From positions 27,697,482 to 27,761,481 of the forward strand of contig NC_088205.1 in NCBI RefSeq assembly GCF_037126465.1: a DNA stretch of 64,000 nt, in the 5' to 3' direction. Made by a program: the position numbers and the translations under genes. The stretch comes from Ornithodoros turicata. Its lineage: Eukaryota; Arthropoda; Arachnida; Ixodida; Argasidae. Shown here piece after piece: positions 1 to 24,292 of the stretch (the first letter of the stretch is position 1; each line of letters starts with the position of its first letter). Under the pieces are notes generated by a model, which searched no databases, was not told the DNA's origin, and saw only the letters and a list, made by a program, of their open reading frames with translations.

Positions 1-2035
1 GCACCCGCGGGCCGACGTCATAGGTGACGTGTGCATGAGAGAGGCGCAGCTTTCGTTGTCTGCTCTTACGGCACGTTTCGACAAATTCCTCGAAAACGAC
101 TTGGTTATTCCGAATGAAACTTTGATGGTTGTATGTGTACAGCACTCGTGAAACTAGTTTTGGCTAAGTTTCGGAATCGCCTCGGCTGTACGAGACCGTC
201 CCTTTAAGCAGCCAGGGGTATTCACATACTGTTGCTTGGCAAGGTTCGATACCTCAGTTTTGGAAATCATAACTTTGTTTTGTATTCGGTGACGGGATGA
301 TTGGTGGGCGTTACGCGTGACAACTGCGAATAAAAACGAGCCTTCCATTTGAGGAGAACATAAAACACGTCCTATCACTTTTTGGATAAATGGTGTCGCA
401 TATTAAAACGGAGTGTTTTGATTAACACGGAGTGACAGAACGCCGAGGAGACACAAACAAGACGCACACGGGAATCATCAGAGTTACTACATAAAGGCTG
501 GGCCTATATTTCGGCTTTAAATCAATCCCAGCATTCCGTCCCGGGATCCCAGGATTAGTCGGGAAAAAGCACGAAATCCCGGGACTGTAAGAGTGGCCCA
601 GGATTTCCAACCCGGTGGCTACTAGATGACTAATTGACAGAGATTTATTAATTACGTCTTAAATTAGGGCTTAAAGTGTGAGACACAATCCCCGTCGAAA
701 GCCGTTCTGTTTTTTAAAATCTCCGAAGCGATCAGGAACGTTGAAATATCCATCTCTGAATATTCCCTTGCAACTGAGCCGAAACCGAAACCGTGCGCGT
801 CAGGAACGCGGGGAGCACAGCTCTCTTTCCATGTCAGAGAGCCACGTGCTTTGGAGCGATGGACATGGAGTTGGTGCTGATCACGGAGAAGTAAGGAAAT
901 AGAACGCGGTTCGGAAATGACGGCCCTAATGCCACAAATCTCTTGCGGGAGCGCAATGGCGCTCGTGTACCCTCGGAGGCTAGATCTCCGAAGATCCCGC
1001 TTTGGCAATGCTATGTTTCACTGTTGAATACTTTACGGTGACGCGCTCAAATGGGGAGTTTATTAAGCAAGCATGCACTCGAAGCATTTAGAAATAAACG
1101 ACTGTTTTTACTGTTGGGTGCGTTTTTTTTAAATACTTTATTCAGTAGTGTTTATCTTTCACTATTAATACCATTCAGAAGCGTAGAAGATCGGGTGACT
1201 AGGCTAGTTGGTAAAAGGTAATCATTGAGTGAGCAGCGCAGTAGGAAAACACAGACGAATATGGAAGACAGACGAGGACGTTCCGCATAAGGATGTCATT
1301 GTCTTTCCTCTTTCCTCGTCAACGTTTTCCTACTGTGCTAGTCAGTCAGTCATTGGATAACACTCCATAAAGTGGCGTAGTCATCCCTCACTCCACAAGT
1401 GGTGGCTCTTTCTACAACTTTTGAAGCAAATACATGCAGATCCAAGAGTGCCAGAAAAAAAAAAAAATATTTTCTGAACCAAAGCATGTTTAGATAAAAA
1501 TGGAAAAGCTGAATTTCCCCTAAGACACAAACATCATGTTTACTGATCCAAATAACTTTAATATAGGTATCGAGCGTATTAGCGGAGATGAAAAAATGCA
1601 TTACCAAGGTGTAAGATCGGAGGAGTTAGTCTATCATGGAACGCGGCCGCTGCGCTTCGTCCGCAAAAGATGCGTGGAATTAAAGCACGCGCTTTCTCAA
1701 CGGCGCGGTGGCGGAGTTCGCCCTCCTTACTTCTCCTCCGTGGTGCTGATCTGTTGGCCTAACCAACGCTTTGCGGCCCAGATAGGCCAACGACGGCCAT
1801 GTCTTACGTATGCCATGTCTTAAACGTGTCTCCACCCAATTTAGACGTAACAAACGAAGACTGCGGCCGCCGGTGTGCCTGTGACGTGTAAATGTTACTT
1901 GTATCACAGACATGCAACTTCAACTCGATCACCCACGAAGATGCGTGCGGATATTGCGAGGCAACGGTCTTTGACCGTTGTGTCGCACGTGCTCCAGTCA
2001 CGTGGTTTGGGATCTGACATTTCGTGGCATGGTGG
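1..2035. other. No supported gene
   Basis: Open frames here are short (under 115 codons), overlap on both strands and show no family motif, splice pattern or repeat structure that I can defend. A 13-nt A run occurs near 1454-1466. A host exon cannot be excluded. Confidence 0.5.
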
Positions 2036-2038
2036 TCT

Positions 2039-2095
2039 GCGCGTCCCACTGATCTCTATGTATAAAGGCTGGATCGCGCATGGGAGAGGGGCTCG
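2039..2095 (+). repeat. Short repeat, inverted relative to 5217-5272
   Basis: About 57 bp (core TATAAAGGCTGGATCGCG) recurs as a diverged reverse complement at 5217-5272. Both copies share the stretch that reads GAGATCAGTGG on the opposite strand. It probably marks an unclassified interspersed repeat. No termini or target duplication were resolved. Confidence 0.5.
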
Positions 2096-2190
2096 TGGGG
2101 GAGAGGCGTGCCTTCGGGCCGCCATGTTGGGAGGCCCTAAAGCGCTGTGTGTGCCCATAGAAAACAATGGGAGGCAACAAAGATTGTGAG

Positions 2191-4465
2191 TATTTATTGC
2201 GCTGCAAGCATTGGTCGTTGTTTGTCATCACACGATTTTGTAAGGTGCCAGTATACTGATGTATCCTAACAGTGTTTCACAGGTGTCCTGCCGTTTGATT
2301 CTTAATTACGTTATGTTTTTCATTCCGAAACTAGACCGTCACTGCAGTGCAGCGCTGGGGATTGTACTACAGCACGTTTCCCCAGCCAATATTTCAATAA
2401 GAAACGACTTGAGGTTAACAACAACCATGTATATAATATCCCGTACTGCGTTCTGGACAAAAATTGTTCCATAAAGAATGGTCCGGGAAAAGATATACTC
2501 GCATGGCAGAAAGAGATCGTTCTGTAGAATCACAGCCGCAATGTTTTAGCCGTGTATGCGTTTAGTATGATTTATACCAAGCATCGCCTTAGAAAGAGTC
2601 TTTCAGTAAACGACAGCGGTGCTTTGCCTCGCACATATGGACACACCGAAGCAGCCCAAATAATTACTTCACGCAATTAGATCACACTCGTTAGGACAGT
2701 TAATCAGGTAGTGATGTAAGCTTAATCAATTAAGTTACTTAGAAAGTGGTAACACCTGCTTGAGACACAGGACTTATCTCTTTTTGAAGTACAGCCCTTT
2801 ATGTTTGTTTGCTTCTTCCTTTATTTGTTCTGATTATTTGCAGGCGCGATTGTGCCAAACTGAATGTCCTTCTCCAGCACTCACGTGCTTTTGTTGAATA
2901 AAACTGCAGCGTGAGAAAAGCTGCTTGGGGACGGGGTCCTGCTATCCAGTGCCGACTTTGTCATGCTTGTTATGTGGAGCATGTTCCAAAAAATGCAGCT
3001 CCACGTATGGTCTTCAAATTGCAACAGGACTATTTGGAGCTCGAAACAGTTGTGATTTTGTCATTTTGGCCCTCGTGTACTCAGTCTGTGAAACGCAAAC
3101 AAAAAAAGTCTAACACGATATGCTTTTGTAATGAAGATCACTGATGATGAGTAAAGAGAATATACGAGTTCAAGTTTATTCAATATTTTATATCATTCAT
3201 TATATTATTCAACATTTTATGTCAAGTTTATACAACATCAAGTTTATTCAAGTTGAAGATTTATTTCTTGCACTTATGCGTTTGAGGATACAATGAACGT
3301 GCAGGGAGGTCGCAAAAGGCTACGTTTATTGTTTTGTGACCTTGCTACAATGGCAATATATACCACAGGAATGACAATGTACACGTACATTATGCAAATT
3401 TGTTGCACCCAATTTTCATACATGCTGAATTTTAAATTTTTGTTTTGCTGCCTATGTGTTCAGTGTATTACAAATTGCTTAATGCAAACAACACTTTGTT
3501 AATTTCAAGCTTTTTGCTCCCATCTAAGATATTCCTATACTGGAGGAACTGCCACTTCGACACCATAAAATATTCAGTAGGTTTCACTCTGGCAGGCCCT
3601 GCCACTGCAAATTTCCTGAATTGAAACCCTTCAAACTGTGTCATAATCTTAAATACGTCAATATTTCTGCAAGTAGTTGACATGCTGGATGACACTCCCC
3701 CTGCAGCTAAGGCAACCACAAAGTGTTCCAAGAGGCCGAAGGTAAACCTACAGCTGCATGAGTGTGATCAACAGTAGGGCATTCTCAATAAATAATTTTC
3801 TTCTTATAGTGTACATGTGCATGCCTATTAACTGGAATAATTATCACTGTTCCCTGACAAGTTTTAATTTCTGAGAGTGTACTGTAGAGGCTGCTTAGAT
3901 CTACAACAGTTCATACAAGGTATTATATACTGTGAATGCCTTTAAAAATCCCATGTGACACATATGCCTTTACTTTCTGGAGGTGCTGTGGAGTTTGTGG
4001 GCATTACGCAGGTTCTGCACCCATTTCTTGAGTATGTCGAGGCAGCTGTGAAGTAACCTGCATTGATGATGATTATTCCAATTTTTATGGTGCATCGACA
4101 ACAAAGGAAATAATACATCAGAACATTGGTTTGGGTGCAACCAGTTAAAAATGAATATGTTGTTTAATAAATGCATTGGACAAATGTTAAAACATCAGTT
4201 TAAAACATGGTTTACAATCCCAGTATCTTCTAAAAATTAAAAAGATTAAAAACTATTCTACAAAGAACATGGGGAACTCTTCTAAAAAGAATTATAATCT
4301 TTAATTATTATATTCCTGGGTGAAGGAGCCTAAAGTGTAAGGTGTGTTTCTGATGTGAACATGTAAGAAAATATGCAAAACTCAGAGAGGCTAACCACAG
4401 TGCGTGCACTGAGGTTGTTCCTTCCTGTAAAGTAGAAACCAGTGGATGAGGAACGTGATACTTAC
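2191..4465. other. No supported gene; AT-rich stretch at 3160-3262
   Basis: No recognisable coding family. The 78-codon frame at 2911-3144 has several cysteines but no known motif. Between 3160 and 3262 the motif AAGTTTATTCAA and close variants recur three or four times with related AT-rich sequence, an imperfect repeat tract. Confidence 0.45.
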
Positions 4466-5163
4466 CTGTACACCCAGCCGTATCACACTGCACAGATTAT
4501 TCACTAGGTAGCCCCCATGACGAAACCTGTATTGAGAGACCACTTTTGCCTTAAAAACTGCTACAAATAGCACGACACGCTACAAATTATTACTATCGTA
4601 ACAAGCTGACGATACAGCTCAGACACAAAGGCGTTATTCAAGTCGCGCCACACCACCGTTACGTAGGATTCTTTGTCACAAATCAAACCAAGGCACAAAA
4701 CAATACCAATAGATGAAAAATTGTGACAATCGTGGTCTCATTATGACGTAATACCGAACTTGTGCGCGAAGGTAATTCAAAGAAATGAATGTGGCACTTG
4801 CCTCCGCAAAGAACACCGTGTACCATGCTAGCAATGCATGCAAAAAAGCGCTCGAGTGCTCGCACATATATTGATGACAACACTACCTGTGTAGTGTAAC
4901 ATGTTCTTTCAAGCATATTATGCACTCAAACTGTATTTGCCGCCGGGTAAAATGCAAGTGTGCTCGATTGAACGTCGGAAGAGCGATCAAGCAACCTGCA
5001 TCCAGTGTTCGTTTTGGGCAAAAAAACACTTCATAATGGTCAAGTAAATATACAGAATGGACGCCTACTTATTCCTTGATAAAGAATTACTCACCTGTAT
5101 AAATTTAGGCCCTGTAACCCTGCCAGTACGGTTGGTACGACCGTAATTGCAAGAAGTTGCCAT
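4466..5163 (-). other. Candidate spliced transcript, two 5' exons
   Basis: Exon 1 would be 5095-5163: an ATG at 5163-5161 opens 23 codons ending in CAG before the donor GTGAGT. Exon 2 would be 4466-4526: a good acceptor (TCTCTCAATACAG) and donor (GTAAGT). Joining them in frame gives a stop after about nine further codons, so the coding potential is doubtful and this may be a leader or a noncoding RNA. The protein is not recognised. The support is splice-site quality plus the adjacent GC-richer, promoter-like segment near 5.2 kb. Confidence 0.3.
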
Positions 5164-14453: not shown

Positions 14454-14587
14454 TGTAGAGGAAGAGCCAGGCGAGCGGAGCCAGAGCAAAACGTTTACTG
14501 AGCAAAACCCAAAAGAATAATAATAAACGCCCTCTTAGCTCGGGGATTAGCACGAGCCCAGCTGTTCACCCACCATCTTCCTTAACA
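14454..14587 (-). repeat. 3' LTR of the BEL/Pao element
   Basis: 134 bp, TGTAGAGG...TTAACA on the plus strand, about 93-95 percent identical by eye to 24,293-24,425. A purine-rich tract (GGACGGGGGAG, minus strand, 14,598-14,588) sits immediately before it as a polypurine tract should. Confidence 0.85.
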
Positions 14588-14921
14588 CTCCCCCGTCCGA
14601 TGAGTCCCAGTTGCTGTCTTGAGCGTGCACGATCGTACAAGTCGATCACGTCCAGTTTGAAGCTCCTGCACTCTTGCTAGCTTCCAGAACATCCTTGGTT
14701 GCCGCTGATCTGCCAGTAGTACGAGTTGATGCAATTGAACGCTGTTGGAGGTTGCATGTCGACTCAGGTTTGCAGATCTAAGCTGTAGCAAGTAGTCCTT
14801 GCCCAACTGCTTCCAGTATGCAGTGAGGAGCCTTTCCTTCGCTTGAAGCACTTCCAATGGTTCGGCGTCTACGCTGTCTGACGTCTCTTAATTGGCGGCG
14901 ACGCCGTGAGTCGCTTCCCCA
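14588..14921 (-). pseudogene. BEL/Pao integrase C-terminal domain (DUF5641-like)
   Basis: Minus-strand sequence around 14,590-14,870 encodes the C-terminal module of BEL/Pao integrases: a helix with LLTAYWKQLGKDYL, a strand region and a PRMFWKLARVQEL segment. Upstream toward 14,921 a GKRLTA motif appears in another frame, showing at least one frameshift. The coding sequence resumes on the far side of the DNA transposon at 19,882 with the WWGGFWERMV region. In a working element this module helps bind the cDNA and target. Confidence 0.8.
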
Positions 14922-15045
14922 CACTCTAAGAAAAAAAGGAGTAAAACGGGGAGTAATTGCAGCTTCTACTCCCCTAGTCTGCAATTACTCCCCATTTTAG
15001 TCCCCTAACCCAACATTTAGTCCCGACATTTACTCCCCAGGACTG
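14922..15045. repeat. Left terminal/subterminal repeat region of the ISL2EU-like element
   Basis: The terminal 18 bp matches the right end. It is followed by several copies, in both orientations, of a short GGGGAGTAA/TTACTCCCC motif, likely transposase binding sites by analogy with other DNA transposons. Confidence 0.7.
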
Positions 15046-15375
15046 CAAATTGTCACTACACTTCGCGAATGGTCTCCTGAATGCAACAGTCTACGTAAGT
15101 ATGTGCCCTTGGTCAATTTGAACGACATAAGGCTGTATAACTCAGACAACGTAGCAATTTTCCAGCCACACAGAATAAGAAAGAGTTGGCTCATCTTTCT
15201 TCGCAAATTGTGCCCTAGTATGGCGCAAGATTTTATATCACTCGATATATCACCGTTGACGGTTTGCTTCAAAGTATCTTCATGCATGCGCACCAATAGG
15301 TGAATGTAGAGTTTCGAAATCTGTAGGCAACCCTGTGCTCCACCGCTTCCGGTTCGAAATTCTCACCGCCGCCGC

Positions 15376-17456
15376 ATGGCTATGGCTGCAGGAAGGTGAG
15401 TAATCTTTAAAAAAAAGAATAATAAAGAAAAGAACGATGTTTAAATGGCGCACGGGACAGTCAACAGCGGAAATTTATAACTGCTCCCAGTAAAAGTGGC
15501 AGCACCGCAGCTTTTTTGGGCACAGCACTGCAGTCGTGAACGGCTGTGTGTGCTTGGGCGTAGCGTGAACGCAGTTATTTGACTGATGTATGTGTGTATA
15601 AGCGATCAAGAGGGACATGACTAGTTCGTTTGCAGTGATATAATAGCCACCCAGCCATGTTCGCACATTCAATGCGGTTGAGCTCGGCTGAAAGCGTCCC
15701 GATGCGCACATCGGTGTTTTGTGTAACAGTTGGTTCAAGTTTACCGCTTTTCTGCGCAGCTTTTTGCAAGTGGTGAAGTACAAGGAGTTATCCTACACAG
15801 ACTGTGCAGACCTGTGGCCACGGATAACATACGACGACATTAATGAATATTTCATTAATAAGCTTGGCCACGATAAGAGGAAGATGGAGGCCTACAAGTC
15901 AATGGAAGCGTACCACTATGTTAAAAGCGGCGAGTGCTACTTCTTAGCGTTTCCAGGTTTCTGGGAAGAGTGGATATTAATAAGGTTGCTAACCAACAGG
16001 TAAAGTACACAACATCACCATAGCCACTGTCAACAACAAAGTAGTGCTGAGAGGGGTTGTCAGCCCCTCACAACGATCGGGCATGGTGTACACATGCTGG
16101 GTTGCTGCAGAACATGATGGGGAGATTGTGGATGCATCTTGCTCTTGTATGGCTGGGTAAGCTGGTGTAACACAGTATAGCAAGCGTTTCTTTATTAATC
16201 ATGTTGTTACATAAAATATCCTGTATACTTTCAGGTTGGGTGAAGTGTGCAGCCACTGTGCTGCGATATGCTTCACTGTTGAGGCAACACACAGAGAGAA
16301 CTCGCAGCTGCCAGCACCTACAGATCTCCCATGCCAGTGGCTGGCACCACGCCTGAAACAGGTATTGACATTAACTTAAACAGGTTGCACATCCTACAGT
16401 GATTTTTACTCAACTAGATTCCACCTCAGCAAGCGCGGCAGCTAGACTATAGGCGACCTCGATGGTGGTCAGCAAAACGAAACCGTAATGCTACTGAAGA
16501 TTCCACCATAGAATTTCCAGACGATAAGTTCGAAGCTTTTGTGTCACAAATACGAACAGTAAGTGACCAAATTTCTGAGCCCACCCTATTTTTGGTCTAA
16601 TAACTGCCTCAACGTTTAGGTCGCACCAGAGGCACGGCTGTTCACACTCATTGATATCAACCAAGCAGCCGCTACGCAACCAAGCACGCAGACTCAGGCC
16701 AGTGGCGATTTCATCATTTCGCCTACAAGTCCCTTGAGCTCACTCAACATATGCGTCGAGCTAGACAATATTAAAATATCAAGAAGAGATGCGGAAGAAA
16801 TAGAAAAACTCACGAGACTACAGCGGAAGAGTCCAGCCTGGTTTGCACACAGAAAAGGCAGGATAACAGCATCAATATTCAAGGACGTATGTGCATCCAA
16901 ACAGGTCAAAGTGTCATCGCTGCTGCAAAAAAATTTTTGTTCCCAAAACATTAGAAGTCCTGCCATTTATTATGGTATTGAAAACGAAGCAAGGGCAAAA
17001 GACTCCCTATTTGCTCTGTTGTCACAGCATCATGCCAATGGAAGGATAGAAGATTGTGGGCTCATGATCAGCCCGAGGTACCCTTATTTGGGATGCAGCC
17101 CAGACGGAGTATACTACTGCGACTGCCACGAACCAGCACTGGTTGAAGTAAAGTGCCTATACACAATGAGAGACGCTGACCCAACAACACTCGCTGAAAA
17201 TGGACAGAACCAAAAGGATTTTTGCCTAACAAGGGATGGAACCCTAAAGCAAAGTCACAGATACTACTACCAGGTACAAGCCCAACTGCACTTGAACCTT
17301 GTGGACAGCAAGCGTTGCTACTTTTTCCTTTTTGTGGAACGTGGTGGACACCTTGTGGAGGTTGAGCGCGACGAAGAGTTTATGATGTGCCATGAAAGCA
17401 GTGTGAGAGCTTTCTTCACCGACATTGTGCTCCCACGACTAGTTAGTGGGTTTTAA
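15376..17456 (+). CDS. SWIM zinc finger plus YqaJ-type nuclease protein of the transposon
   Basis: Gene model of six exons: 15,376-15,395; 15,760-15,956; 16,000-16,156; 16,235-16,361; 16,418-16,558; 16,620-17,456. Phases agree and give 492 codons plus stop. The start ATG follows GCCGCC. Residues about 119-131 form a SWIM finger (CSC, seven residues, CSH) split by an intron. The C-terminal half is a YqaJ/exonuclease-like PD-(D/E)xK fold: SPAWFAHRKGRITAS, then SPDG (Asp about 376), VEVKC (Glu 390, Lys 392) and a downstream YYYQVQAQL. Such proteins are the second product of ISL2EU elements; the nuclease may process ends or gaps during transposition, but the exact job is not established. The 43-nt intron 2 has an ordinary acceptor and a weak GTTTCT donor, the least certain junction. 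It ends 135 bp from the oppositely oriented transposase gene. Confidence 0.8.
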
Positions 17457-17591
17457 GTCATAGTAAAACAGTGTACAGCCAAATCATTTCACTGCTAATC
17501 ATTTACTTGCAAGATCTTACCTGTAACTTGCCTGCTTATTTGCTTACCTGCATTCTTGATCCACACAGAGATGGTCACCTGTAACGACAAC

Positions 17592-19594
17592 CTAATTTGC
17601 TCTTATCAGTGGCCGTGTGAGGTTGGTTAACCCTGCCACAACAGTAAGGATACTGTCGAAATATGGAACAAGTGTGTGTGGGACATGGCCTGTCATGATA
17701 CGCCACTTCTTCAAATTTCCAATAGCTCGTTCCACAATAATCCTACAGGAGGATATCCTTCTGGATGTTGTGACCTCGTGATGTGGTAACTGCTCTTTGT
17801 TCCTTGTTGATGCAGGTGTGATTAGGCGAGCTCCTCTTTGAAAAAATGCCTCGTGGAGCTGGAAGCCCCTGTCAGCAAGGACTTGATCGCCCTCTCTGAT
17901 TACATCAAGTAGTCCTGTAAAAAGTAGAACCATTGTTTACCAGAGTAAAACCCACCGTGGGTGTCACAGTGACATCGAGGCTATGTCAGGGAAAAATTGT
18001 TTACCACTGTCTAGAGTTAGCTGCCTGTCTGATATCCGTCCCCCGTAAACTTTGGAAATGAGTGTTACTGCTCCGTGAGGGTTGACGCACACTAGAAATT
18101 TCAGTGTGCTGGTCTGTTTATAATTACTCCAGACCTCTTGTTGAGTTTTCATATTTAGTGGCCTACAAAGAAAGCCAACCATCAGAGTTTATCAACATTA
18201 CTTCGCATGATGCCCAATAATATCAGCTCCAATAACACAAGTATACACCAAAATTGTGTAAACAAATTTTTAAAAATTGGTAAAGAATGATACCCTGTTC
18301 ACTCACCTGGAAACAGGAATCTCTGAGCAGTCAATTATGGCTCTTAGGTTTGGAAAATGTTCACGTTCCTTTTCTGTCAACCAGCTCTGTGCAACACGTG
18401 GCTCAGGGAAAACAATGAGCCGTTTACAGAGGGAAGCCACTGTTCTGAGCCAACATTTAAACATACTGCTAGCAGTGTGCTCGGATACTCCAAACCTGAA
18501 CGCGAGGTCTTTGAATGTCGTCCCTATACGGAGCTTTATAAGAAATAAAAGAAGCTGCTGAGAGTGCGTCAGGCATTTTGAGCTGTCACGAATTACAGGT
18601 GAGACGGTGGTAAGTACAGCAAAGAAGACCGGTTTCGATAGACCTGAAAAGTTGCAGAGGGATTTCTTTTTACTGTGCTACACCTGTCTTGCATAAGTGG
18701 CACGTACCTGTGTAGAACAATGCTTGATCATCATTCATGTGCTCTACATCAAACTGTGCATTCAATTTCCTAGTTAGAGTTGCAACTCTCTCCTGTAGAG
18801 TACTGACTGTCCCCCGCAGTACCTCGTTCTCTTCTTGCAAGCAGGAACAACTTGCACACAAGGCGAGTGCGTCTGTCTGGACAGCTGATGACAAAAAAAG
18901 AAAGAAAAAAACTGTCGCGATCAAACAGGTGGAAACTTCGCTGTCGTTTAACAGGTTGAAGGCCCAAACCTTTAGCCTGAGTCAATGCGATGTCGCCCAT
19001 GTTATCGTCGATACTGGTATCGTCGGTACATGCAGTATTGCCATAATCAGTGCCCAGAATCCCTACTTCGGCTTCCCCATCGAGCCTGGGATGCTGCTGA
19101 GCAGCTGCAGCTTCTCGCTTATGCATTATGCGCATGTGGCGTTCATAACTGTACAACAAGACATGACACTGCATAAAGTGGACTACACAGAACAGATGAA
19201 AAAGTTACCATTAAGCTTACCGCTTAGCTTTTCGTTCAGCCCGGGTCTCGGACTCTCTATCGTGTCGGAACACTGATGGCACGTAATCCACATGCGACGG
19301 ATCATCGCTTCGCATCCCTGCATAATAACGGAAGATTTCACGCTTTACTTGCGTGCATCACACCCAATGCGCTCCGATTTAAAGTGCTTCAAAAATTGAG
19401 AAAAACCTACTTGTCACGAAGTGCATCTCACAGATGCGCGCGCCTACACCAGGCATCCACAGACGGCCGCCGGCTTTTTTTCGGTTTATGGCTACAGCCC
19501 AGCGCATTCGTCTTGCTTTCTCCCATGGAACCCGAAACATTTTATGTCCCTTGACAGACGAGTTAGAGCACCCGTATGCAGAACATCCGACCAT
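17592..19594 (-). CDS. THAP-domain DDE transposase (DDE_Tnp_4 type)
   Basis: Seven exons (minus): 19,411-19,594; 19,221-19,317; 18,970-19,148; 18,708-18,884; 18,307-18,643; 18,005-18,162; 17,592-17,914. All have GT-AG borders and consistent phases, summing to 1,455 nt, or 484 aa plus stop. Residues 1 to about 82 are a C2CH THAP finger (GCSAYGC, RW, ICEMHF), the DNA-binding module. A leucine-rich coiled coil (LQEENEVLRGTVSTLQERV) lies near 165-195. The DDE_Tnp_4 catalytic domain has Asp in IIDCSEI (about 317), WSNYKQ and YGGRISD, Asp in VLADRGF (about 390) and Glu in IVERAIGNLKKW. All three acidic residues are present. It should cut and join the element ends in the nucleus. Length and domain order fit THAP-carrying Harbinger-superfamily transposases. 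Exon 3-4 splicing is the least certain. Confidence 0.85.
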
Positions 19595-19737
19595 AGTGAG
19601 ACAAGGGAACGAGATGAACACAGACGCGATACATGCGCATTGCCAAATCTCGAACCGGAAGTACTGAGTCACGTGGGATGAACTGGCTCGCTACGTCACT
19701 GCCGGCGAAAACGACATCCACCTATTTTGTACCCGGG

Positions 19738-19881
19738 ACTCTTACAACAGCGCGTGAAATGCGGTCTTCACTCTGTGGCATTCATTTACTTCCGTGCATT
19801 TACTCCCGAAAGGGACTATTTTTTGTGGCAATGCAATTACTCCCCAAAAGGAGTAAAAGTACCCCTTTTTTTCTTAGAGTG
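19738..19881. repeat. Right terminal/subterminal repeat region of the ISL2EU-like element
   Basis: Reverse complement starts CACTCTAAGAAAAAAAGG like the left end and then carries GGAGTAA repeats near 19,780-19,860. The ATG of the transposase is about 290 bp inside this end, so the promoter should lie here. Confidence 0.7.
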
Positions 19882-20103
19882 CAGTATTAGATGCGACGGA
19901 GACAAAGCTTGGGTGTCGCCAGGACATTTTTGTCAATGGCCGTGAGTTGACGATCGCTTCGACCTCTGTTAACACGGTCAGCAACTGTTGAAAGTCTAGC
20001 TGACTTCGACGGAGTGTTCTTCTGAGAGCATCTTTAACTGAGCGTACCATACGCTCCCAGAAACCTCCCCACCAGGCGGCACGTTCGGCAATAAACTCCC
20101 ATG
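19882..20103 (-). pseudogene. BEL/Pao integrase, post-catalytic part
   Basis: In one open minus frame: WEFIAERAAWWGGFWERMV (the hallmark after the integrase core), then LRRTLRRSQLDFQQLLTVL and EAIVNSRPLT. The frame is cut by the DNA transposon at 19,881. Immediately upstream the expected catalytic core is missing. Confidence 0.85.
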
Positions 20104-20487
20104 TTATTCGTGCTTATGTCGCATACCCCCGTACCGCTTGGAACTGATTCAACAGCAAGGCAGGAAGCTCTCGAGTGGCTGAGCGGCTCTAGTCGCAGTA
20201 GTCCATCGTTATCCTGGTAATTGCGAAAATTCTCGAGATGCGAGGACCTTACTGTAAGGAGCTTTGTCTGAGTAGCCTTGATCCAGTACCGCTCTGATGA
20301 CACCATTTCTTCAGTAGAGAGAGGACCAGTTTTCTTGACGTTTGACCGCTTCGAGTTGTGTACGTAGCGCAGTATCCATGCGGTGACTTTAAGAAGTCGA
20401 GCGGCACTACTGAAACGTTCGGGTGAAAGCAAATGTGCTGTGCAGCTGACCAAAGCCACATGAGCGTCCAAACATTCCTCGCCTCCT
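20104..20487 (-). pseudogene. BEL/Pao pol, RNase H to integrase junction with core deletion
   Basis: Minus frames encode SAARLLKVTAWILR and a GPLSTEE...YWIKATQ segment that normally precedes the integrase zinc finger, then a short EGL/RLE-like stretch. The sequence then passes directly to the WEFIAER motif. The H2C2 finger and most of the DDE core (about 200 residues in intact relatives) are absent, so this copy cannot integrate itself. Confidence 0.75.
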
Positions 20488-21385: not shown

Positions 21386-22289
21386 TTAGTGACCCAACTT
21401 TATCTTCATGCCGGCCGCTTCGAATATGCTCAGGGTTTCCTCATGAAGTGTCCTGGCATTTTCTGATGTGCTGACACTGACCACTAAATCGTCCACGTAA
21501 AAGGATTGCTCCAAGAGCGTAGCAGTCTGCAGGTAATCCTCCTCTGCTTGCTGTAAATGATGCTGAATGGTCGCGGACAGCAGGAACGGACTAGATCGTA
21601 CTCCGAAGGGCACTCGTGTCATGCGCCATGTCTCAATAGACGATAAAGGCTGTCCTGCGATCGGCGTCGAAGTGTACCATAGGAAGCGCAGAGCGTCTGT
21701 ATCCTGTTTGTGAAGTGCAATCTGCAAGAAAGCTTTCTCGATGTCTGCCACCATGCCTATGCGATGCATTCGAAACCTTAAGAGCAGAGAAAGTTTGGAC
21801 CGGCGTGCAGAACCTGGTTCAGGGATAGAAAACCCGGAGCACTCAATCGATGAGGCGTCCGAATACAATTCTAAATTTCGTAGTTTCTCTCTCGCGTCTG
21901 ATAACTGCATGATGTGGCATGTAATACTCCGGGAGAGCAACAGGTGATGGTGATGCAGCATCAATACCGCCGGCATGACTGTTAATGATATACTGTCGTA
22001 TCACCTAATCGTATTCGTTCATGTCCTCTTGATCTCTCAAAAGAGTACGGGTGGCGCTGCGTAAACGCTGCTCCGCTACAGCCTTGTTTCCCAGTCGTGA
22101 GACGAGGTCTTCATTCAACAACAGGCGCACTGTATAACGACCATCTTCAAATCTGGTTGTGTCCCGAAACCTCTGGAAAACTTCATGCTTCTTGCCATCC
22201 GACTCTTCACTGTCAACAATACCAAGGTGCTCTAACTCCCAGAAACGCAGTGGAGACATCGTCGTGGTCAACGCTGGACAGTTGCACAT
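21386..22289 (-). pseudogene. BEL/Pao reverse transcriptase
   Basis: Upstream FWELEHLGIVDSEESD and a YTVRLL segment lead into the RT. The domain includes RMHRIGMVADIEKAFLQIAL with its catalytic Asp, RVPFGVRSSPFLLSATI, and the active-site SFYVDDLVV about residue 160 of the local frame. Frames break near 21,980-22,010. The catalytic Asp residues are present, but the polyprotein is not continuous. Confidence 0.88.
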
Positions 22290-23226
22290 GTAGGGCGTTA
22301 GCCTCGTAACCTAATTGCTTTCCCGTAGGTCCTTGTAGCGTCCATCTGAAAGTGGTTTCCATGCCGGTGAGATTGTCACGAACTCGTACTTGTCTCCCTG
22401 TGACAACGGACCCATAGAAATCTGCTCCTACTAGTATCAGGATTTCAGGTGACGCTTCAGCGAACGTAGCTTCATCTGCTAAAGACATTCCCTCGGACTT
22501 CAGCTGTGCAAGACATTTCCGGTCAATATTAGGAAGGTTGCCGATGCAGATTTCTGGTATCTCAGCTTCAATACAAACTTCCTCGGAAGTATACTGCGAC
22601 CGAAGCCTGACTTTCACCCTACGATGCAACGATTCGGTTCCAGCCTTGCCTACCGTATTGATTACCAAATGCTCTTTCCCAACCGTCGGTAATGGCAACT
22701 TCCTACACAGTGCTCGCTTAACGAAACTTCTTTGACTTCCCCCATCTATGAGGATCCGGACGTACTCCTTTCCTCCGGCCGCGCAAACGATTACTTGTGC
22801 AGTCTGCAGCAGGACTATGTCCTGTCGCAAACCTGTACGTTGCTGCGTGCCACTTGCGAGTACCGTCCCTCCAGACCTTGGTACTGTACTCTTCTGCTTG
22901 CACAGCACAGTTAAGTGTCGTCCATTACATTTTCTGCATTTGAGGCTACGAAATGATCGGCGAACCTTTGCTGTATGATACTGCTTGCCGCAGCGGAAGC
23001 ATCTGTGGCTGCTACGAAGCCTTTCTTCTAACTCTGCCACATTTGCTTGTAAGTTGCAATTCAGCATCTCGTGATCATTCCTGCAAAAGAAACAGGGCTC
23101 CGTCTTGTCACGAGTGGTAGTCGCTTTTCTGGCTTCGACGCCAAGAGCCGGACGACAGTCTTTCAGAAGAAGTTTGCCGTAACTTCCTCTGGTTCGTCGG
23201 AATATGCCTCCTCGTGTCGTAGACAC
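22290..23226 (-). pseudogene. BEL/Pao zinc knuckles and aspartic protease
   Basis: A long open minus frame has CFFCRNDHEMLNC (CCHC knuckle) and CFRCGKQYHT, whose last Cys appears to be replaced. The retropepsin-like DUF1758 domain follows with ILIDGGSQRSFV, where the usual D-S/T-G-S reads D-G-G-S, a change likely to impair activity. Then come GVQ-type strands and ILVGADFYGSVV, the second conserved protease region. It is the longest intact frame of the retroelement. Confidence 0.85.
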
Positions 23227-24292
23227 TGTCTCCTGTAGCCGGTGGAAGTTGCTCCCTGCACTCAGCTTCCATCTTGATAAAGTCTAGCAACTTCGTGAGA
23301 AGTATCTCATACCGATCTTCTGCCGATGTAGTTCCAAGCGATTGTTCGTCGCCGTGAACCTTCCTCTGGAAGCTGAGAATCATATCTTGCAGAACCGCTT
23401 GTTATAGAACAGGAAACAGTAGAGAGCAAGACGACTTTGAGGTAGTACCCAGCGCTTCTAAACTCCTCATATGAGCCCTCACTGCGTCGTGGAGGCGTCT
23501 CAGTTCGAGAACATTGCGGGAGGAGCGTACTGGCTGAAGTCCTGCAACCGCTTCAGGTACCAGCGTGTTTGGATTTCGAAATCTTTCCTTAATCATCTTG
23601 ACCGCAGTGTCCCCTTATTGAAGCTGCAGCCTCGCCAGTAAGAACCGATGTCAGGTAGGACATCTTCTCGTTCGACAAGGAAGCATTGCTGTCTACCAGG
23701 GACTCGAACCTTATCCAAAATTCCTGCCAGTGCTCTTGACTGCCATTATATTTGAGGAGTTCCAACTTCGGTAACTGCGGTCTGTGACGGCCATCTCCTA
23801 CAGTTCGATGTTGACTTGGGTGACCCGGACTACGTTCTCCAATGGGAAGCGTCAGCTCACCCGGGTTTCTGGACTCCAGTATGGAACCAGCTCTCGAAGA
23901 CTGCGCGACGATATGTTTCTTCAGTAAGCAGGTGATGGTGGTTACCCGGTCTTGATAGTCGATCATTTCTCCAGTTCCGCTTCAACCTCCTCGACCGTAA
24001 ACATAGGCTCCAACTTTCTGTCCACGCCATCCAGGCTGGCGGAGAATTTGACGATGCGCTCAAGCAGTACCTCACAACGAGTGGTGTCATCCTGAGAGCT
24101 TTCAACGACCTGCATAGCTTGCTCGGCTTCATTCAGTACAGTGGTCTATTTCTGCCGAAATGACTTCCTCTTTCGCAGGAGAAAAAACCCTCGAAGTCGA
24201 TTCCTGTGACGCCTCCGTCATCGTGCTGGCCTGTGAACGTTCTCCGCTCTTCAGTCCCTAGCAGGGGTTCCCAGGTTTCAGCACCCAATATG
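23227..24292 (-). pseudogene. BEL/Pao gag (DUF1759-like), frameshifted
   Basis: Pieces in different minus frames: an acidic helical N-terminus (about 23,970-24,140), the DUF1759 hallmark LPKLELLKYNGSQEHWQEFW and LTGEAAASIRG (23,589-23,800), then IKERFRNPNTLVPE and LHDAVRAHMRSLEALG (23,402-23,596) and a C-terminal helical part. At least three frameshifts separate them. The primer-binding-site candidate TTGGGTGCTGAAACC lies 4 nt inside the 5' LTR; tRNA identity was not assigned. Confidence 0.8.

Follow-up and report, generated by a model that had tools for sequence, protein, structure and literature searches.

A recently active, apparently intact two-gene ISL2EU-type transposon nested in a shorter element of the tick Ornithodoros turicata

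Results

We analysed a 64-kb stretch of the genome of the soft tick Ornithodoros turicata (contig NC_088205.1, positions 27,697,482 to 27,761,481; hereafter the window, in whose own numbering coordinates are given). At 15298-19723 it carries a 4,426-bp DNA transposon with two intron-containing genes arranged tail to tail, a transposase on the minus strand and a partner on the plus strand. We assign this element, which moved recently and seems intact, to the ISL2EU type, with high confidence in its identity and anatomy. An earlier note, made from the letters of the window, had already proposed this identity and the two-gene layout, and both are borne out by a transposase with THAP, HTH and DDE domains, a partner with a YqaJ domain and an AT duplication in A|AT|T. 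The extent that it gave, 14922-19881, included a second, enclosing element, a miniature inverted-repeat transposable element (MITE) into which the ISL2EU element has inserted.

The partner gene comprises six exons (15376..15395, 15760..15929, 16000..16156, 16235..16361, 16418..16558 and 16620..17456, all plus strand), and its 483-aa translation equals, letter for letter, the NCBI O. turicata protein of LOC135395422 (P0001), whose gene model was made independently of ours. The earlier model of the partner had the right number of exons and the wrong length, 492 aa, because nine residues within ECYFLAFPG are intron. Intron 2 (15930-15999), which begins with the GC donor after exon 2, is of the GC-AG kind, starting GCGAGT and ending AACAG; GC is found in all eight full-length copies of the element, and a related locus (L061) has, by eye, a GT donor at the same position. 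At the exon 2/3 junction the 483-aa model agrees with the majority of relatives, whose sequence there is VKSGKVH or similar; P0005, an NCBI model, contains additional residues at this point. A GC-AG intron can thus mislead gene models.

Exon 6 of the partner encodes a YqaJ/lambda-exonuclease domain (Pfam YqaJ and Viral_alk_exo, both at about 6e-13), whose PD-(D/E)xK residues D367, E381 and K383 are kept at >=90% in a 36-sequence alignment. A SWIM-like CxCx7CxH motif spans exon 3, with the first two cysteines (C111, C113), and exon 4, with the remaining cysteine and the histidine (C121, H123); two of these residues are invariant and two are at >=90% in a 16-row alignment, whereas in the 36-row alignment, many of whose rows are fragments, none of the four is listed as conserved. 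Both sets of residues, reported in the earlier note, are present in the model and kept in relatives. The AlphaFold2 model of the partner (mean pLDDT 77.6, pTM 0.57) is mostly above 90 in the nuclease half and lower in the N-terminal half. It matches both LHK-Exo (E 7.8e-9) and lambda exonuclease (5e-8), as well as, at 5e-7 and weaker, herpesvirus alkaline nucleases. Among NCBIfam entries, a lambda-exonuclease family matched the partner below its cut-off, and a Myb/SANT domain had no match in the partner at E up to 0.1.

The transposase gene has seven exons on the minus strand, joined by GT-AG introns throughout, and encodes 484 aa. The THAP domain lies in exon 1 (19411..19594), followed by exon 2 (19221..19317), exon 3 (18970..19148), exon 4 (18708..18884) with a heptad-like stretch that by eye is a likely coiled coil, exon 5 (18307..18643) with HTH_Tnp_4 and the first catalytic D, exon 6 (18005..18162), and exon 7 (17592..17914) with the second D and the E. 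Pfam matches were DDE_Tnp_4 (1e-40), HTH_Tnp_4 (4e-13) and THAP (5e-8). The gene model and the alignment of relatives reproduce the 484 aa, seven exons, THAP C2CH and DDE residues of the earlier note: C4, C9, C55, H58, D317, D392 and E439 (484-aa numbering) are invariant among 14 sequences. A 494-aa model was rejected, as relatives lack the extra 10 aa and the nearer exon 2 acceptor, the one that relatives chose, removes them. The Pfam, NCBIfam, solved-structure and relative searches and the 14- and 16-row alignments used the 494-aa and 492-aa models. Against sequences of solved structures, no match at the usual threshold was obtained for the transposase (best 0.47) or the partner (best 0.035).

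The boundaries of the transposon were drawn from its copies in the genome assembly (1.07 Gb, 379 contigs; copy counts are lower bounds). With the 4,960 bases of 14922-19881 as query, the window locus alone matched at full length. Six more long matches were all bounded at query positions 372-374 to 4805-4806 and one at 518-4714, and 28 loci matched 1-376 with the 4798-4960 part directly adjoining. Because inner and outer parts match separate sets of loci, 14922-19881 consists of two elements. As 40 of 2,299 candidates were scored for this query, the genome probably contains many more than 28 loci with the outer sequence. Near-identical copies, which the earlier note had suggested looking for, do therefore exist, with ends other than those it expected: its matched inverted repeats, CACTCTAAGAAAAAAAGG at 14922 and 19881, bound a 532-bp MITE, and the other full-length ISL2EU copies start with AGGTGAATG and end with CATCCACCT.

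All seven uninterrupted full-length copies share the extent of the element at 15298-19723 and read AAT-AGGTGAATG...CATCCACCT-ATT. The terminal inverted repeats (TIRs) are AGGTGAATGT on the left (15298..15307, plus strand) and AGGTGGATGT on the right (19714..19723, minus strand), with nine of ten positions matching. The 28 fetched MITE copies are all unoccupied and have CATGCGCACCAATTA where the window has CACCAAT-element-ATTTTG; since the empty sites read AATT and the filled site AAT...ATT, we take the target to be A|AT|T, with AT duplicated at 15296..15297 and 19724..19725. The 28 MITE copies go back to one ancestral sequence and hence represent a single target site seen repeatedly, not 28 insertions. 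In an end-pattern scan of the loci, AA lay beyond the 5' end in 8 of 9 (TA in the remaining one, L008) and TT beyond the 3' end in 12 of 12; since the patterns themselves included the T preceding AGGTG and the A following CCACCT, only the bases beyond them are informative. Further inward, a candidate transposase site, CTTCCGGTTCGAAATT (15346..15361, plus strand), has a right-end counterpart, CTTCCGGTTCGAGATT (19646..19661, minus strand), so that CTTCCGGTTCGA(A/G)ATT occurs at both ends in inverted order, 49-78 bp inward. Against the left end, one of 396 segments taken at random from the window gave a higher score, and the shared motif is thus suggestive only.

A search with 15298-19723 alone (40 of 40 candidates scored) returned the seven uninterrupted full-length copies, the window's included, and an eighth (L008, C4:45958529-45971943) in blocks 1-149, 142-4338 and 4332-4426, split by two later insertions. 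At the joins of these insertions, 8 and 7 bases are repeated. Five older or partial loci match at 90-96% (C6 51.80 Mb, C3 57.31 Mb, C38 1.68 Mb, C38 93-103 kb in blocks, and C1 118.7 Mb), and matches at 64-77% belong to other families. The locus at C3:57313475-57316942 (L030) is a 2,482-bp ISL2EU derivative that has lost internal sequence and retains both ends, with AAT...ATT flanks.

The full-length copies differ from the window copy by 0.11% (L002), 0.16% (L003), 0.36% (L004), 0.50% (L005), 0.66% (L006), 0.72% (L008) and 1.30% (L007) of substitutions, and the window copy has two private substitutions among the seven uninterrupted ones. Both genes are open in five of the eight, the window copy and L002-L005. 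In L006 the transposase frame is open with its first THAP zinc ligand changed (C4F) and the partner is broken; in L007 the transposase lacks 15 bases in frame and the partner is broken; and in L008, judged with the first gene models only (494-aa transposase, 492-aa partner), both genes are broken. Crude dN/dS values of the window copy for transposase and partner were 1.0 and 0.7 against L029, 1.4 and 0.7 against L007, 1.5 and 0.6 against L006, and 0.7 against L030 (transposase); against the intact L002-L005 they were about 0.3, zero or undefined, with 1 to 8 changes each.

The closest relatives of the partner are tick proteins, namely P0002 of O. turicata (46%) and named hard-tick proteins (38-47% over the aligned parts); more distant ones come from two molluscs and a beetle (about 29-33%), and many matches carry no source name. 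For the transposase, the matches listed (best 120 of 303) include O. turicata P0038 (54%), Ixodes proteins (48-49%) and, more distantly, proteins of fish, molluscs and amphioxus (roughly 31-39%); none of these 120 is an NCBI protein close to the window transposase, the top match being the one at 54%. Eleven related O. turicata loci, which are ten places as L055 and L062 overlap, were compared: in five (L055, L065, L066, L068, L069) parts of both genes lie tail to tail, and six contain one gene only within the DNA examined. Titles and abstract openings of the 32 ISL2EU papers listed describe no tick family, and the best 15 of 19 matches on the O. turicata genome assembly contain no title on this one. 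Literature searches combining YqaJ with SWIM and transposon, or with transposase and THAP, found nothing further on such systems.

The enclosing MITE is non-autonomous, and smaller and older than the ISL2EU element inserted in it. Its left part lies at 14922..15297 and its right part at 19726..19881, between CA target duplications at 14920..14921 and 19882..19883. The 2-bp flanks are identical in 25 of the 26 copies (16 TA, 6 TG, 3 CA) whose ends could both be read by script among the 28 fetched (L022 and L035 excluded), and differ in one. The MITE in turn interrupts a retrotransposon, of which a DUF5641 piece lies at 14582..14887 (minus strand, E 2.3e-14) and a weak integrase-like piece (rve_3), probably of the same retrotransposon, at 19874..20113 (minus strand, E 0.0059, below the Pfam cut-off); two further frames of this region had no domain match. 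From the order of the DUF5641 and integrase domains we presume it to be of BEL/Pao type. The nesting order is thus ISL2EU inside MITE inside BEL/Pao-type retrotransposon.

Unspliced stop-to-stop frames of >=220 aa number two in the whole window, one of them partner exon 6, and this scarcity of long frames suggests, in line with the earlier note, that the other large elements of the window are decayed. At 22213-23283 (minus strand), a 356-aa open frame with zinc-knuckle-like cysteines resembles, by eye, a retrotransposon gag/protease; it has no Pfam match.

Discussion

The near-identity of the copies points to recent transposition, and the family may still be autonomous. The earlier note had called the window copy young or selected and possibly autonomous. 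Youth is supported by copies at a distance of 0.11-1.30%, and the possible autonomy by five near-identical copies with both genes open; selection finds no clear sign in the crude dN/dS values. Nor is the window copy singular, since four other full-length copies, 0.11-0.50% away, also keep both genes open.

From the domains we can propose how the two proteins might work. Binding of the element ends would fall to the THAP domain, with help from the HTH and the likely coiled coil and with the repeated CTTCCGGTTCGARATT as candidate site, and the DDE domain would excise the element and join it at AATT. The partner may be a metal-dependent lambda-type exonuclease, held on DNA by its SWIM-like finger. 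Acting on the ends left by excision, it could resect the 5' strands, so that templated repair would close the gap and preserve the donor copy. This role in donor repair is the least certain part of our proposal and is put forward tentatively; that the family is mobile in present-day O. turicata and also depends on the lambda-exonuclease-like partner appears, as a joint statement, unlikely.

Several observations weigh against the overall reading, this scheme included. One of the two private substitutions of the window copy turns partner residue 310 from Ile to Asn; the residue is Ile in L002-L004, Phe in L005 and Ile or Met in 14 other aligned relatives. The SWIM finger is a motif only, as the Pfam SWIM model matches 2 of the 36 alignment members and not the window partner. 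Moreover, Spy elements have a transposase alone (PMC4482050), and activity of their native transposases has been reported (PMC11304231); a nuclease is thus unneeded for the core reaction in Spy.

The private Ile310Asn change would fit a family that has recently died or that depends on another ISL2EU, its frames open with no working protein pair here and its copies moved in trans. In three of the eight full-length copies one or both genes are broken, and other ISL2EU-like genes reside in the same genome. Against this stand the five near-identical copies with both genes open and the finding that, of 13 family loci at >=90%, one (L030) has lost internal sequence while keeping both ends, so that no burst of non-autonomous copies is seen. 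We regard this explanation as possible, if rather doubtful. Much the same weight may be given to the view that the partner helps chiefly in DNA binding or nuclear import, its nuclease being accessory. The Myb-like second protein of Harbinger is an interaction partner of the transposase and is linked to the entry of that enzyme into the nucleus (PMC9179366); the near-invariance of the PD-(D/E)xK residues across 36 sequences, however, argues for catalysis by the partner.

A Spy-like insertion without duplication, with TAGG...CCTA placed between AA and TT, fits the empty AATT and filled AAT...ATT equally well, and the two modes are not separated by sequence alone. We nevertheless consider it improbable, given that Spy has one gene and no YqaJ and that insertion into A|AT|T with AT duplication is the published signature of ISL2EU elements with YqaJ (PMC4482050). 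Domestication of both genes by the host could be read into the NCBI annotation of the partner as LOC135395422 and is very improbable beside the mobile ends, the target site and the near-identical copies at loci with other flanks. A single 4,960-bp transposon ending in CACTCTAAG... at 14922 and 19881, as matched repeats around the genes and the whole-query match of the window locus might suggest, can practically be dismissed, since six other uninterrupted copies match 372-374 to 4805-4806 only and 28 loci match the outer parts with nothing between.

Our preferred reading remains a young, apparently intact ISL2EU family that may be autonomous. The 2015 survey of the group (PMC4482050) states that what the YqaJ protein does in ISL2EU is unknown, and a young family with five near-identical copies, both genes open, offers a reasonable basis for testing the need for the nuclease. 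If the family were indeed mobile and partner-dependent, it would provide a natural system of two components that employs a phage-type recombination nuclease in eukaryotic cut-and-paste transposition. The locus further illustrates how the inverted repeats of a nested MITE can pass, wrongly, for the ends of a transposon.

Comparison with known systems

The element resembles the ISL2EU group of the PHIS superfamily, as characterized by Han et al. (2015, PMC4482050), in its AT duplication, its THAP, HTH and DDE transposase, its YqaJ protein and its animal host, and with 4,426 bp it is close to the ISL2EU average of ~4,840 bp. Its TIR of 10 bp, 9 matching, falls inside the described range of 6-259 bp, but starts with AGG instead of the usual GG. 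Spy, described in the same paper, belongs to the same superfamily and shares a related DDE transposase and an AT-rich target; it has, however, one gene, no YqaJ and an AAATTT target without duplication, whereas the window element has two genes and an empty site CCAATTA. PIF/Harbinger elements are set apart by a 3-bp TWA duplication and a Myb/SANT partner, in contrast to the AATT site and YqaJ partner found here.

With lambda exonuclease, LHK-Exo and herpesvirus alkaline nuclease, the C-terminal half of the partner shares a predicted fold and metal-binding motif; unlike them, the partner adds an N-terminal half with the SWIM-like motif and belongs to a transposon. The other ISL2EU-like genes of O. 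turicata, P0002 and P0038, have the same domains and represent separate families (46% for the partner, 54% for the transposase). The window element is of an ordinary, known type, ISL2EU, and its state is favourable, with recent amplification and several intact copies.

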